Origin: Sphingopyxis sp. BSN-002
GTDB lineage: Bacteria; Pseudomonadota; Alphaproteobacteria; Sphingomonadales; Sphingomonadaceae
Direction: 5' to 3'
DNA length: 64,000 bases
Assembly: GCF_022024275.1 (NCBI RefSeq)
Contig: NZ_CP091804.1
Coordinates: 3,180,501 to 3,244,500 of the forward strand
Position 1 is the first letter of the stretch. The number at the start of each line of letters is the position of its first letter. A program made the position numbers and the translations under genes. The notes under the pieces were generated by a model, which saw only the letters and a program-made list of their open reading frames with translations, did not search any database and had not been told where the DNA came from. This document shows, piece by piece, positions 13,791-20,194 of this stretch.

Positions 13791-14008
13791 CGTCCTCAAC
13801 TATCCGAACTATTGCTGGAAATCGGGCAAAGACCCCTCTAGGGAGGCGCGAACCGAGGGCAAGGCGGCCGGGGGGCTTTCACCTCTTGCATGCGGTGATT
13901 TAATAAGGTAACACACCTTCAAAGGGATTATCCTGCGCTTGCGGGTCGGGGCGGGTCGCTGTCGGGCGATCATTGTCCGGACTTTCGCGGCGTCAGAGGG
14001 GATATGGC

Positions 14009-15211
14009 GTGAACTACGAACGGAAAGTGGATTCGATGGACAGCCTCGCGGGGACGCAAAGCTTTTACGAAGATCAGGACAACCGCCGCAAGCGGATGCT
14101 GACGATCGCCGCCGTGGCGCTGATCGCAGTCGTGCTGCTCGGCGTCTGGTACGCGTTCGCCCACAGCAAGGGCGACGACGCGGCGGCCGGTGGCGCCGGC
14201 GGTGCGGGCGCCCAGAACGTCCCGAACGTTACCGTGATGATCCCGGGCCGTGTTTCGGTTCAGGCGGCGATTGCCGCCAACGGCACGATTGCGGCGCGTC
14301 GCGAAATGCCCGTTGGCGTTGCCGGCGAAGGCGGTCAGGTCGTTCGTGTGCTCGTCGAGCCCGGCCAGTGGGTCGGCGCCGGCCAGACGCTCGCGATTAT
14401 CGACCGTTCGGTCCAGTCGCAGCAGGCCGCGAGCCTTGCCGCCTCGATCAAGGTGTCACAGGCCGACGCCGACCTTGCGCAGGCCGAACTTGAGCGCGCA
14501 CAGGCGCTGGTCGGGCGCGGCTTCATTTCCAAGGCCGACATGGACCGGAAGCGCGCGACCCGCGATGCTGCCAATGCGCGCGTTCGTGTCGCGCAGGCGC
14601 AGTATCAGGAAGCGGTCGCACGCAACGGACGCCTCAACATCGTCGCTCCGGAAGCCGGTCTGGTCCTGACGCGGCAGGTCGAGCCGGGTCAGGTCGTGGG
14701 TGCAGGAAGCGGCGTGCTGTTCCGCATGGCGAAGGGCGGCGAGATGGAAATGCTCGCGCAGCTCGCCGAGGCCGATCTCCAGCGCGTCCGGGTCGGCACG
14801 ACTGCAACGGTAACGCCGGTCGGCACCAGCCTGCAGATCGCGGGTCAGGTGTGGCAGGTCGCGCCGATCGTCAACATGGATACGCGCCAGGGTACGGTGC
14901 GGATCGCCATCCCGTACAGCGCAGCGCTGCGTCCCGGCGGCTTCGCCGACGCACGGCTCGTCTCGGGCACCGAACAGGCGCCGCTGCTTCCCGAAAGCGC
15001 GGTGCAGAGCGGGCCCGAAGGCAATTTCGTCCTGATTGTGGGTGCGGACAACAAGATCGCACGCAAGCCGGTGAAGGTCGGAACGGTGACCGACGGGGGC
15101 GTGTCGATCGCGTCGGGCCTGACCGGCAACGAAAAGGTCGTCGTGCTCGCCGGTGCGTTCCTCAACCCCGGCGACAAGGTGAAGCCGGTGTTGCAGAAAT
15201 CGTCGCAGTAA
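14009..15211 (+). CDS. RND efflux periplasmic adaptor (HlyD/MFP family)
   Basis: From the GTG at 14009 the protein has about 400 residues; AGAGGGG lies 7 bases upstream. An ATG at 14036 is the alternative. One N-terminal membrane anchor (L-T-I-A-A-V-A-L-I-A-V-V-L-L-G-V-W-Y) is followed by the membrane-fusion-protein order: lipoyl-like half (V-R-V-L-V-E-P-G-Q-W-V-G-A-G-Q-T-L-A), a coiled-coil hairpin of Ala/Gln/Glu-rich heptads, second lipoyl half (A-P-E-A-G-L-V-L-T-R-Q-V-E-P-G-Q-V-V), beta-barrel and membrane-proximal domains. It should link the pump encoded next to an outer-membrane channel, which is not encoded here. Confidence 0.93.
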   Translation: MNYERKVDSMDSLAGTQSFYEDQDNRRKRMLTIAAVALIAVVLLGVWYAFAHSKGDDAAAGGAGGAGAQNVPNVTVMIPGRVSVQAAIAANGTIAARREMPVGVAGEGGQVVRVLVEPGQWVGAGQTLAIIDRSVQSQQAASLAASIKVSQADADLAQAELERAQALVGRGFISKADMDRKRATRDAANARVRVAQAQYQEAVARNGRLNIVAPEAGLVLTRQVEPGQVVGAGSGVLFRMAKGGEMEMLAQLAEADLQRVRVGTTATVTPVGTSLQIAGQVWQVAPIVNMDTRQGTVRIAIPYSAALRPGGFADARLVSGTEQAPLLPESAVQSGPEGNFVLIVGADNKIARKPVKVGTVTDGGVSIASGLTGNEKVVVLAGAFLNPGDKVKPVLQKSSQ

Positions 15212-15254: not shown

Positions 15255-18200
15255 ATGAGCTTTCGCAACATCTCCGCCTGGTGCATCCGCAATCCGGTGC
15301 CGCCGATCGTCCTGTTCGTGCTGCTGTTGCTGGCGGGCGTCGTCAGCTTCAACCGGATGGACGTCAACGACAACCCCGACGTCGAATTCCCGGCGGTGCA
15401 GGTCATCGTCTCGCAGCCGGGCGCCGCGCCGACCGAGCTCGAGACGCAGGTGACGCAGCGCATCGAGGCCGCGGTGCGCGGTGTCAGCGGCGTCGATGAA
15501 ATGTCCTCCTATGTCGGCGAGGGCAACAGCCGCACGATGGTGCAGTTCGCGATCGGGACCCCGATCGACCGCGCCTATAATGACGTCAACCAGGCGGTGC
15601 AGCAGATCCGCAGCGACCTGCCCGACGGCATTCTGGAGCCGCAGGTCGTGCGCGTCGACATCGCGGGCGGTCCGATCACCTATTTCGCCGTCGAAACGAG
15701 CGACATGACGCTCGAGCAATTGTCGTGGTTCGTCGACAATACGGTCGCGAAGGACCTGCTTTCTATCCCCGGCATGAGCCAGGTGCGCCGCTCGGGCGGC
15801 GTCGATCGCGAAATCCGCGTGATCCTCGATCCCGCGCGCATGCAAAGCTACGGCCTGACCGCAAGCCAGGTGAACCAGCAGCTCCGCCAGACGAACGTCA
15901 ACGCTGCGGGCGGCCGCACCGAAATCGCGGGTTCCGAACAGGCGGTGCGCGTTCTCGGCAACGCCGCCAATGCGTTCGCGCTCGGGGACTCGCGCATCTC
16001 GATCGGCAATGGCCGCACGATCCGCCTGTCGGACATCGCAAAGGTGACCGACGGCTACGCCGAGCAGCGTAACCTTGCGAAGATCCGCGGCCGTCAGGTG
16101 CTCAGCTTCTCGATCGAGAAGGCGAAGGGCGCCTCCGACGTCACGATCCATGACGAGACGATGAAGAAGCTCGCGGAGATCAAGAAGAACAACCCCAAGG
16201 TCGACTTCAAGATCCTCTTCACGCGCACCGAATATACCAAGGAGCAATATCGCAGCTCGATGGCCGCGATGATCGAGGGCGCGGTGCTCGCGGTCGTCGT
16301 CGTCTTCCTGTTCCTGCGCGACTGGCGCGCGACGCTGATCAGCGCGCTCGCGATCCCGCTGTCGGCGATCCCGACCTTCTGGTTCATGGAACTGATGGGT
16401 TTCTCGCTCAACGGCCTGTCGCTGCTCGCGCTCAGCCTTGTGGCCGGGGTGCTCGTCGACGATGCGATCGTGGAGATCGAGAATATCGTCAGACATATGC
16501 GTATGGGCAAGACCGCCTATCAGGCGTCAATCGACGCCGCCGACGAGATCGGGCTCGCAGTCGTCGCGACGACGATGTCGATCGTCGCGGTGTTCCTGCC
16601 GGTCGCGCTGATGCCGGGCGTATCGGGGCAGTTCTTCATCCAGTTCGGGATGACCGTCGTGTTCGCGGTGCTCGTCAGCCTGGCCGTCGCGCGTATGATT
16701 ACACCGATGATCGCGGCCTATTTCCTGTCGGCGCAGGGCGAGCAGGAGCATGCCGCCGGGCCATGGGTCGACCGCTATGAGCGCATTCTCGCTTGGTCGC
16801 TGGACAATAGCAAACATCATGCGAAGCGTGCGGGCTATGACTTGACCGCCACGCGGTTGATCTTCCTCATTGTACCGCTGATCGTCGCCGCGATCGTCGC
16901 CGCGGTCGTGGCAGCGATGTACTTCCGGCCTGTGCCCGTCGGTCAGGACGCGCCTAATGCCGCGCTGCATTTCCTGCTGCTGACCCCACTCGTGGCTGTC
17001 GTGACCTTCTTGCTGGTCGCGCTTCTCCAGATCGTCCTGGGGGCGATGGTAGTCTGGACAGAGCGTGAGCCGATGTCGAAGATCGCCTCTGCTTATGCGC
17101 GGCTTGCAGCTGTTGCTGCCGTGTTGGTCGCGCTGCTGTGGCTTGTTGGCATGTTGTCCCCGATCACCAAGGCGCTGATGGCGTGGGCCGGCATTATGGG
17201 TTTCGCGGTCGCGCTCGGATTTGTGTCGTGGGTGTTTGCAAAACTCGGCATGGCGAAATGGACCTTTTCCCATTGGGCGATGTCGATGTCGCAGCGCGCG
17301 CGAGCGCGCCTGTTCGACCACCGCGTGTGGATCGTCGGGATCGGCGTTGTCGCCTTCCTGAGCAGCATCGGGATATTCATTATCTCGCCTAAGCAGTTTC
17401 AGCCCACGACCAACAGCGACTATAGCCAGGTCCAGTATGAGCTGCCGCCGGGTTCGACGCTTGCGCAGAGCGAGCATATCTCGAACCAGATCAACGATAT
17501 TCTTGAGGCGAACCCGACGGTCGAAAATGCTTTCTACGACGTCAATGTGGGCGGTGGCAGCGTGTACATCACGCTGAAAAAGAAGCGCGAGATGTCGAGC
17601 GTCGAATGGGAACGCAACCTGCAACCCAAAATGTCGGCGATCCCCGATGCGCGCGTCCATTTCCAGAGCCAGTCGGGCGGTTTTTCGGGCCGTGATATCA
17701 CGATGGTGGTCGGCGGTGACGATCCCGTGGCGCTCGAAAAGCACGCGCGCCTGATCGTTGCGCAGATGGGCAAGCTCAAGGAACTGCGTTCGCCGCGGAT
17801 CGAGGGCGACATTCCGCGGCCCGAGATCATCGTCAATCCGCGTATGGATCTGGCGGCCGAACTCGGCGTCACGACGGCCGCGCTCAGCCAGACGATCCGC
17901 ATCGCGACGATCGGCGACATCGATCAGAACGCGGCGAAATTCTCGCTGTCCGATCGTCAGATCCCCATCCGGGTACTGCTGTCCGAAGACTCGCGCCGGG
18001 CGCTCGCGACGATCGAGAATCTGCCGGTGCCGACCTCGCGCGGTACGACGGTGCCGCTGAAGTCGGTGGCCGAGATCGGCTTCGGCGCGGGGCCGACCGA
18101 GCTGCGTCGTTACAACCAGACGCGACGTATCGTGATCGGCGCCGACCTTGCCCCGGGCCTCGTCACGGGGGATGCCCAGACCAAGATCGATGCGCTGCCG

Positions 18201-18857
18201 GCGGTGAAGAACATGCCGCAGGGTATCCGCAAGGTCATCCAGGGCGATGCCAAATGGCAGGCCGAGATGATGAACAATTTCTTCATCGCGCTCATTGCCG
18301 GGCTGATGCTCGTCTTCTCGACGCTGGTCCTGCTCTATCGCCGTTTCCTCTCGCCACTCGTCAATATGTCGTCGCTGCTGCTTGCGCCGCTTGGCGGCCT
18401 GCTGGCGCTCCGGATCGCGGGGATGGAAATCTCGATGCCGGTGTTCATCGGCCTGTTGATGCTGCTTGGTATCGTGGCGAAGAACTCGATTCTGCTCGTC
18501 GATTTCGCCATCGAGGAAATGGATCACGGGATCGGCAAGTCGGAGGCGCTGCTCGATGCCGGACGCAAGCGTGCCCAGCCGATCGTGATGACCACGGTCG
18601 CGATGGTCGCCGGCATGGTGCCCACCGCGCTCTCGCTGTCGGGTGACGGGGCATGGCGTGCGCCGATGGGCGTGGTCGTGATCGGCGGCCTGATCCTGTC
18701 GACGATGCTGACGTTGCTGATCGTTCCCGCGGGCTTCAGCCTTGCCGACAGCATCGAAAAACGCCTTGGCCGCTTCTTCTCGACCTATCTTCTGACCTAC
18801 CGGAAGGGCGACGATACCAAGCCGCACACGGCGCCAGCACCCGAGCCGGCCGAGTAA
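15255..18857 (+). CDS. RND multidrug efflux pump, HAE1 family, with large central insertion
   Basis: 1200 residues, about 150 more than AcrB-type pumps. The expected parts are present: first membrane helix and porter loop (P-P-I-V-L-F-V-L-L, F-N-R-M-D-V-N-D-N-P-D-V), helices 2-6 with the proton-relay Asp pair in V-L-V-D-D-A-I-V-E (about 401-402), the second porter loop (F-Q-P-T-T-N-S-D), and A-K-N-S-I-L-L-V-D with the relay Lys near 1075. Between helix 6 and the start of helix 7 (residues about 520-682) there is an extra segment with about four hydrophobic helices (near 534-556, 570-598, 615-636, 640-663). Frame and codon use are continuous through it, so it is not an obvious artefact. Drug or solvent export is expected; the substrate is unknown. 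Confidence 0.93.
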   Translation: MSFRNISAWCIRNPVPPIVLFVLLLLAGVVSFNRMDVNDNPDVEFPAVQVIVSQPGAAPTELETQVTQRIEAAVRGVSGVDEMSSYVGEGNSRTMVQFAIGTPIDRAYNDVNQAVQQIRSDLPDGILEPQVVRVDIAGGPITYFAVETSDMTLEQLSWFVDNTVAKDLLSIPGMSQVRRSGGVDREIRVILDPARMQSYGLTASQVNQQLRQTNVNAAGGRTEIAGSEQAVRVLGNAANAFALGDSRISIGNGRTIRLSDIAKVTDGYAEQRNLAKIRGRQVLSFSIEKAKGASDVTIHDETMKKLAEIKKNNPKVDFKILFTRTEYTKEQYRSSMAAMIEGAVLAVVVVFLFLRDWRATLISALAIPLSAIPTFWFMELMGFSLNGLSLLALSLVAGVLVDDAIVEIENIVRHMRMGKTAYQASIDAADEIGLAVVATTMSIVAVFLPVALMPGVSGQFFIQFGMTVVFAVLVSLAVARMITPMIAAYFLSAQGEQEHAAGPWVDRYERILAWSLDNSKHHAKRAGYDLTATRLIFLIVPLIVAAIVAAVVAAMYFRPVPVGQDAPNAALHFLLLTPLVAVVTFLLVALLQIVLGAMVVWTEREPMSKIASAYARLAAVAAVLVALLWLVGMLSPITKALMAWAGIMGFAVALGFVSWVFAKLGMAKWTFSHWAMSMSQRARARLFDHRVWIVGIGVVAFLSSIGIFIISPKQFQPTTNSDYSQVQYELPPGSTLAQSEHISNQINDILEANPTVENAFYDVNVGGGSVYITLKKKREMSSVEWERNLQPKMSAIPDARVHFQSQSGGFSGRDITMVVGGDDPVALEKHARLIVAQMGKLKELRSPRIEGDIPRPEIIVNPRMDLAAELGVTTAALSQTIRIATIGDIDQNAAKFSLSDRQIPIRVLLSEDSRRALATIENLPVPTSRGTTVPLKSVAEIGFGAGPTELRRYNQTRRIVIGADLAPGLVTGDAQTKIDALPAVKNMPQGIRKVIQGDAKWQAEMMNNFFIALIAGLMLVFSTLVLLYRRFLSPLVNMSSLLLAPLGGLLALRIAGMEISMPVFIGLLMLLGIVAKNSILLVDFAIEEMDHGIGKSEALLDAGRKRAQPIVMTTVAMVAGMVPTALSLSGDGAWRAPMGVVVIGGLILSTMLTLLIVPAGFSLADSIEKRLGRFFSTYLLTYRKGDDTKPHTAPAPEPAE

Positions 18858-18893: not shown

Positions 18894-18928
18894 TTGCAAC
18901 CTTTGCGGCATTTCGCCATTTGGTTCGC

Positions 18929-20194
18929 ATGACCGACCACGCGCTCTCCCGGCCGATGGGCGTCGCCATCCCGGCGAAAGGCTCGAACATTCGCGTCGTC
19001 GCGACCGGATTGCTCGTCGTCATGGCGGCGGTTTTCGTTACCGCCAAATATTTCCAGGACGTCCATCCCGCCGTTGGCTTCGTCCGCGCGTTTGCCGAGG
19101 CGGCGATGGTCGGCGGGCTTGCCGACTGGTTCGCGGTGACGGCCTTGTTCCGCCATCCGATGGGGCTGCCGATCCCGCATACCGCGATCGTCCCGCGCAA
19201 CAAGAACCGCATCGGCGACACGCTCGCGCGCTTCCTGCTGACCAATTTCCTGTTGCCGCGGCTGATTGCGCGCAAGATGCAGACGGTTGATGTCGCGGGC
19301 GCGGTCGGCAAATTCCTGTCGCAGCCGGCCGAGGGCGGCGGGCGCCTGAAGCTCGGCGCGTCGCGGATCATCGCCGACGGGCTCGGCGCGCTTGACCAGC
19401 AGCGGCTGGGTGGCATGGTCAAATCGGCGATCGCCGACCGGCTGCGCGAACTCGATGTCGCCCCCTTGCTGGGGCAAGCGCTGCAGGCGGCGCTCTCGGA
19501 AGGGCGGCACCAGCCGCTGCTCGACGCGATGGTCAAATGGGGATCAAAGACGCTCGAACTCAACGAGCATCTGATTCACCAGATGGTCCACGACAATTCG
19601 AACGCGATCGTCCGCTTCACGGGACTCGACGAGAGCATCTCGAACCGCATCGTCGCCGGTTTGTCGAAGCTGCTCAGCGAGATGGCGGTCGACGAAACGC
19701 ACCCGTTGCGTATCCGCGTCGAGGAAGGCCTCGCCAAGATGGCGCTCGACCTGCAGCACGATCCCGAAGTGAAAGCGAAGGTCGCCAAGGTTCGCGACGA
19801 GTTGCTCGAGAACAGGGCGGTCAAGCGCTGGCTCGACGGCCTGTGGGAACAGGGACGCAGCGCCTTGCTCAAAGCTGCGCGCGACCCCGATACGATGCTC
19901 GCGGGACAGCTAGGCGAACTGATCACGCAATTCGGGACGATGCTGGGCGAGGACGAAGGCATCAAGCGCACGCTCAACCGTTATGCGCGCCGCGCGGTCG
20001 TCGGCATGGTCGACAGTTATGGCGAGACCGCGCTGCAGCTCGTCTCGGACACGATCCGCGGCTGGGACGCCAAGACGATCACCGACCGGCTGGAAAATGC
20101 CGTCGGCGACGACCTGCAATATATCCGCATCAACGGAACGCTGGTCGGGGGGCTCGTCGGCGTACTGATCCATACCGTCGACATCTGGATCTAA
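18929..20194 (+). CDS. DUF445 family membrane protein (YjiN-like)
   Basis: 421 residues from the ATG at 18929 (a TTG three codons upstream is less likely). The N-terminal part has one or two hydrophobic segments and the DUF445 hallmark G-G-L-A-D-W-F-A-V-T-A-L-F-R-H-P-M-G-L-P-I-P-H-T-A-I-V-P containing the conserved Asp, Trp and His. The rest is long amphipathic helices, ending in the family's G-T-L-V-G-G-L-V-G motif and a C-terminal hydrophobic stretch (V-L-I-H-T-V-D-I-W-I). Function unestablished. The 3' end overlaps the convergent epimerase gene by 4 bases. Confidence 0.9.
   Translation: MTDHALSRPMGVAIPAKGSNIRVVATGLLVVMAAVFVTAKYFQDVHPAVGFVRAFAEAAMVGGLADWFAVTALFRHPMGLPIPHTAIVPRNKNRIGDTLARFLLTNFLLPRLIARKMQTVDVAGAVGKFLSQPAEGGGRLKLGASRIIADGLGALDQQRLGGMVKSAIADRLRELDVAPLLGQALQAALSEGRHQPLLDAMVKWGSKTLELNEHLIHQMVHDNSNAIVRFTGLDESISNRIVAGLSKLLSEMAVDETHPLRIRVEEGLAKMALDLQHDPEVKAKVAKVRDELLENRAVKRWLDGLWEQGRSALLKAARDPDTMLAGQLGELITQFGTMLGEDEGIKRTLNRYARRAVVGMVDSYGETALQLVSDTIRGWDAKTITDRLENAVGDDLQYIRINGTLVGGLVGVLIHTVDIWI

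Follow-up and report, generated by a model that had tools for sequence, protein, structure and literature searches.

An inserted, size-variable block of membrane helices between TM6 and TM7 of a Sphingomonadaceae RND efflux pump

We analyzed a 64,000-nucleotide stretch (the window) of the genome of Sphingopyxis sp. BSN-002, a single contig of 3.73 Mb. On its + strand, like all features given below, lies the gene of an RND efflux permease of the HAE-1 type (15255–18857; 1200 aa), in which twelve core transmembrane (TM) helices are accompanied by an inserted block of membrane helices. The block is no one-off: it recurs across the lineage in one orthologous pump of the Sphingomonadaceae, where it varies in size, evolves fast and is exchanged. 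An earlier note on this DNA had proposed an RND pump with an extra block of membrane helices separating TM6 from TM7, where the two halves of the pump meet, and had suggested that it could draw in a partner or alter coupling. Hydropathy and AlphaFold models bear out the block, and its position at the junction was correct. The coordinates in that note were accurate, both 16800–17320, which corresponds to residues 516–689, and 'residues 520–682'.

In fold and catalytic residues, the permease is an ordinary HAE-1 member. It matches PF00873 (ACR_tran) with E = 3e-222 and 740.8 bits (cut-off 28), the alignment falling into two pieces. The best solved relative by sequence, MdtB (9lyq), aligns with query residues 10–496 and 681–1167, and ∼185 residues are left out. 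Scores were below the NCBIfam equivalog cut-offs for MdtC (399.9 versus 1774 bits) and MdtB (397.7 versus 1584 bits), and below that of NF033617 RND_permease_2 (640.4 versus 1250 bits). The AlphaFold model has its best fold match in AdeB (7b8p, Z 52.5). It contains two large periplasmic loops and twelve core helices, namely helices 1–6 at residues 15–34, 325–353, 357–380, 387–416, 421–451 and 455–481, and helices 7–12 at 689–710, 997–1028, 1032–1055, 1061–1090, 1095–1126 and 1136–1178; the four helices of the block are additional to these. Equivalents of the AcrB proton-relay residues were assigned by motif and alignment: D402/D403 (16458–16463) for D407/D408, K1076 (18480–18482) for K940, R1106 (18570–18572) for R971, and T1113/T1114 for T978. 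All are invariant in 89/89 rows, with or without the block, of an alignment of the window's pump (P0001) and 88 relatives, which was sampled for diversity and length and is no census.

Upstream of the permease, separated by 43 bases, is an ORF for the periplasmic adaptor (membrane fusion protein) of an RND system, with a single TM helix at its N terminus (13973–15211; an alternative ATG start is possible at 14036). Its score against TIGR01730 (172.6 bits, cut-off 94.9) shows that the cognate adaptor adjoins the permease. Fold, twelve core helices, proton relay and upstream adaptor gene are all as in known HAE-1 permeases (PF00873; AcrB, AcrD, MdtB/MdtC, AdeB). The solved members listed are about 1010–1070 aa long and have no inserted helices, whereas the window's pump has 1200 aa; the earlier claim of about four hydrophobic helices that AcrB-type pumps lack agrees with these structures. 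Of the ORFs read at 13–21 kb of the window, none stood out as encoding an outer-membrane channel. A gene for a DUF445 protein lies downstream of the pump on the same strand (18920–20194).

The block occupies residues 520–688 (16812–17318). It follows TM6 (residues 455–481, 16617–16697; AlphaFold helix and PF00873 alignment) and the linker helix Ialpha (503–516, 16761–16802), after whose conserved WxLD end it begins. Hydropathy gives four hydrophobic segments, and AlphaFold places extra helices a (535–556, 16857–16922), b (569–604, 16959–17066), c (607–630, 17073–17144) and d (637–663, 17163–17243), then a basic amphipathic helix (670–686, 17262–17312) ahead of TM7 (689–710, 17319–17384). Between a and b is a conserved loop, predicted to be periplasmic, with the motif YFxPVPxGQDxPNxAxHFxLxTP (556–578, 16920–16988). 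Helices c and d form a second hairpin (residues ∼600–664, 17052–17246), which is missing in two-helix relatives such as L009. The full-length model, made with the 89-row alignment as input, has a mean pLDDT of 80.9; the block predicted alone has the same helices (pLDDT 84.8, pTM 0.74). Across all block-bearing rows, loops expected on the cytoplasmic side contain on average 4.47 K+R, versus 0.68 for those on the periplasmic side. This distribution indicates that each hairpin starts and ends in the cytoplasm, so that the orientation of the second pump half is unchanged. Hydropathy, charge and two AlphaFold models thus agree in predicting a block of four added membrane helices followed by an amphipathic one.

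The block has no Pfam match at E ≤ 1 and no PHROGs match, and its profile matches no PDB chain at E ≤ 1. By fold, nothing in the PDB was found at E ≤ 0.001; the best match had a VIA Z of 6.0, in the usual range for helical models without relatives. The idea of a donor protein from another place in the genome or the family was also rejected, since the block as query returned nothing beyond this pump within its own genus.

The pump is present in 285 of 298 Sphingomonadaceae genomes (E ≤ 1e-200). Elsewhere in the order, outside this family, no sampled genome gave a match to it at E ≤ 1e-150. At class level, matches with a complete frame measure 1026–1100 residues from stop to stop, and nine class-level sequences have no inserted membrane helices. 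Among the PF00873 matches listed (∼150, from 40 proteobacterial genomes), spans reach at most ∼3.16 kb, which leaves no room for such a block, and no comparable insertion was seen. The other RND pumps of the window's genome also lack it. At the block site, L160 (a pump of another alphaproteobacterial family) lacks membrane helices and has a basic linker (NDFRGRDGERRPSFGRRVLRRYRDHRIW), resembling the helix-free form of Sphingobium.

Within the 89-row alignment, the number of extra helices is 0, 2, 4 or 6 and never odd, in keeping with the earlier argument that an even number preserves topology. The helix-free state accounts for 20 rows (0–38 residues at the site). Two extra helices are found in 62 rows (block of 93–132 residues), four in 6 rows (168–180 residues) and six in a single row (235 residues). 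The homologue alignment that had been proposed as a check therefore found extra helices in 68 of the 88 aligned relatives, always in even number and at the same site, which argues that the block is not a product of chance. In Sphingopyxis, block length is fixed, at 105–106 residues for two helices or 168–169 for four. Block-free pumps exist even in this genus (L054, L055), so the block is dispensable for the pump. Some helix-free rows have a basic linker of ∼20 residues at the block site, e.g. DERRAIAHRARGGWRRFTSLF, a plausible start or end point of hairpin gain and loss. Adaptor architecture (one N-terminal TM helix) showed no visible covariation with block size, in a set in which a few adaptor ORFs were wrongly picked. 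Some Sphingopyxis genomes encode a second pump paralogue of 1059 aa with no membrane helices in the block (L132, L133, L134); in the window's genome a single pump was seen at that similarity.

In a pump tree built without the block, rows with four extra helices are scattered among rows with two. Grouping the five Sphingopyxis four-helix rows as one clade was rejected (p-AU 1e-37, DNA of residues 1–490). Grouping all block-bearing rows as one clade was rejected as well (p-AU 3e-5), in a weaker test affected by long outgroup branches. The scatter of the four-helix state and the rejection of a single clade indicate that hairpins have been repeatedly gained, lost or swapped. Individual pairs illustrate this. 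The sister of the window's pump, L009, is 98% identical to it over residues 1–515, yet differs in having two extra helices. The second hairpin of the window's pump is closest to that of L039, from another clade (33/65 residues). L039 and L026, with four and two extra helices, have 95–100% protein identity over most of the pump, and identity collapses only in the block.

The second hairpins of P0001, L022, L038 and L039 are mutually homologous, and that of L042 is weakly similar. These data bear on whether the block could be an artefact of mis-assembly, frameshift or gene fusion. No sign in favor of this was found, and no stop codon interrupts the single reading frame of the gene. Three further genomes, each sequenced independently, carry genes of equal length whose second hairpins are homologous (L022, L038, L039; L042 is a weaker case). 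These independent genomes refute the artefact, whose probability we consider negligible.

In one relative, a hairpin has also been added by duplication. A pump of 1267 aa from a Sphingopyxis MAG (L024:6516–7277) has six extra helices, and its third hairpin duplicates the second in tandem (score 89 versus a control maximum of 66 in 231 comparisons). Derivation of hairpin 2 from hairpin 1 was not supported, as the score fell inside the control range and no relation was detectable. Blocks from other genera, among them the four-helix block of L092, mostly have no detectable similarity to those of Sphingopyxis. Given this lack of similarity, the hairpins and blocks may have arisen repeatedly or diverged very fast, two histories that are both compatible with the data.

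The block is the most variable part of an otherwise conserved protein. Mean pairwise identity among Sphingopyxis pumps, per 20 residues, is 31–66% in residues 521–680 and mostly 80–100% elsewhere, with lesser dips near residues 701, 741 and 821. Synonymous differences at codons of unchanged residues were compared between the block and residues 300–490. In four pairs the differences rise in the block: from 0.10 to 0.38 for L020/L056 (p 6.7e-6), 0.06 to 0.36 for L027/L041 (p 2.5e-7), 0.17 to 0.70 for L022/L042 (p 1.6e-11) and 0.21 to 0.55 for P0001/L009 (p 1.8e-4). The pairs L010/L016 and L018/L033 diverge uniformly and show no mosaicism in the block. Since relaxed protein constraint alone is not expected to raise synonymous differences, the simplest reading of this local mosaicism is import by recombination.

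One part of the block is strongly conserved. From the loop to the start of helix b (556–578), many positions are identical in 36–38 of 38 rows, and in the block alignment P567, N568, A570, F573, T577 and P578 are invariant across rows with two, four and six extra helices. Median pN/pS of the block is 0.59, i.e. not above 1. The block might be nearly neutral filler, with the Ialpha/TM7 junction tolerating hairpins that drift under constraint on hydrophobicity and length only. We regard this as rather unlikely, even though a pN/pS of this size is high, presence and absence recur on the tree with close relatives block-free, and blocks of different genera share no detectable similarity. Drift of this kind sits poorly with the constant block length of Sphingopyxis at ∼50% identity, with the strongly conserved loop, and with an excess of synonymous divergence that points to import over drift alone. 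Taken together, the fixed length, the pN/pS value and the conserved loop fit a structured domain with one periplasmic contact better than filler.

The same data bear on selected recombination and hairpin turnover, in which the block would be where the pump meets an antagonist (phage, bacteriocin or inhibitor) or a partner specific to the species. A diversifying surface of this kind would produce what is seen here, a conserved pump with one hypervariable, mosaic region. Yet pN/pS does not exceed 1, the variable part is mostly buried in the membrane, and the sole periplasmic loop predicted to be exposed is the conserved part; we give this explanation only a slim chance.

For this intact proton-driven RND permease, with hairpins inserted at the Ialpha/TM7 junction, we put at roughly an even chance that the insert is a non-catalytic accessory membrane domain on the periphery of the pump. 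On the cytoplasmic side, the two repeats are linked by Ialpha, which moves rigidly relative to repeat 2 (PMC8277102). In E. coli, AcrZ, a separate one-helix protein, binds a hydrophobic groove of the AcrB TM helices and is thought to stabilize them (PMC13095208). By analogy, the most likely role that we infer for the block is that of an AcrZ-like accessory acting in cis on the pump's periphery. The extra helices would lie against the outside of the transmembrane domain, beside its C-terminal half, and the loop YF.PVP.GQD.PN.A.HF.L.TP would point into the periplasm at the membrane surface. As a built-in accessory, the block would stabilize or tune the relative motion of the two repeats; alternatively, it may offer a surface for lipid, substrate or a partner. 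Lineages would swap it because this surface is peripheral and its optimum differs by lineage. The likeness to AcrZ, an accessory hydrophobic helix on the transmembrane domain of a pump, is one of analogy only (PMC13095208), and AcrZ is a separate protein of 49 aa, whereas the Sphingopyxis block comprises four helices within the permease chain.

A more direct role, in which the block enlarges a lateral substrate entrance on the membrane side or alters proton coupling, appears improbable. It would draw on the block's position between two repeats in rocking motion relative to one another (PMC8277102). Proton-relay residues are, however, invariant whatever the block size, and the four added helices contain no invariant charged residue. 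As for the accessory domain, it could tentatively be extended to an exchangeable membrane 'cassette', a possible but doubtful view in which Sphingomonadaceae RND pumps gain, lose and swap TM hairpins at one site, including by tandem duplication, retuning stability, lipid fit or partner binding while the core is untouched.

Mosaic mtrD alleles of Neisseria encode a pump of ordinary length. There, too, RND pump genes are reshaped by recombination between lineages (PMC6083905); the Sphingomonadaceae pump differs in that exchange also alters the number of membrane helices. The earlier note had asked whether the block might be a long-known standard feature. This holds in part, as the two-helix form is common in the Sphingomonadaceae orthologue, but in the open-licence literature we found no description of extra helices between TM6 and TM7 or in sphingomonad RND pumps. 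The main text of a large RND phylogeny (PMC10872679) mentions neither 'Sphingo-', 'transmembrane' nor 'insertion'. An inserted, size-variable, exchanged block is absent from the solved structures and the literature searched. Few membrane transporters have been studied as thoroughly as RND pumps, whose twelve-helix core is usually taken as fixed. The block shows that a membrane domain can grow in hairpin steps. Because orthologues with 0, 2, 4 or 6 extra helices occur naturally, some of them in genes otherwise ∼98% identical in protein, the tolerance of the junction is directly testable, along with the coupling of the repeats and the role of built-in AcrZ-like helices.

Variation in the Sphingopyxis pump is not confined to the block. 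Secondary variable spots lie after TM7 in the periplasmic loop, at residues 741–760 (17475–17534; 57% mean identity) and 821–840 (17715–17774; 71%). Synonymous divergence between P0001 and L009 is ∼0.20 in the N-terminal part versus 0.34–0.42 beyond residue 780, which suggests a further recombination breakpoint in the window's pump gene.
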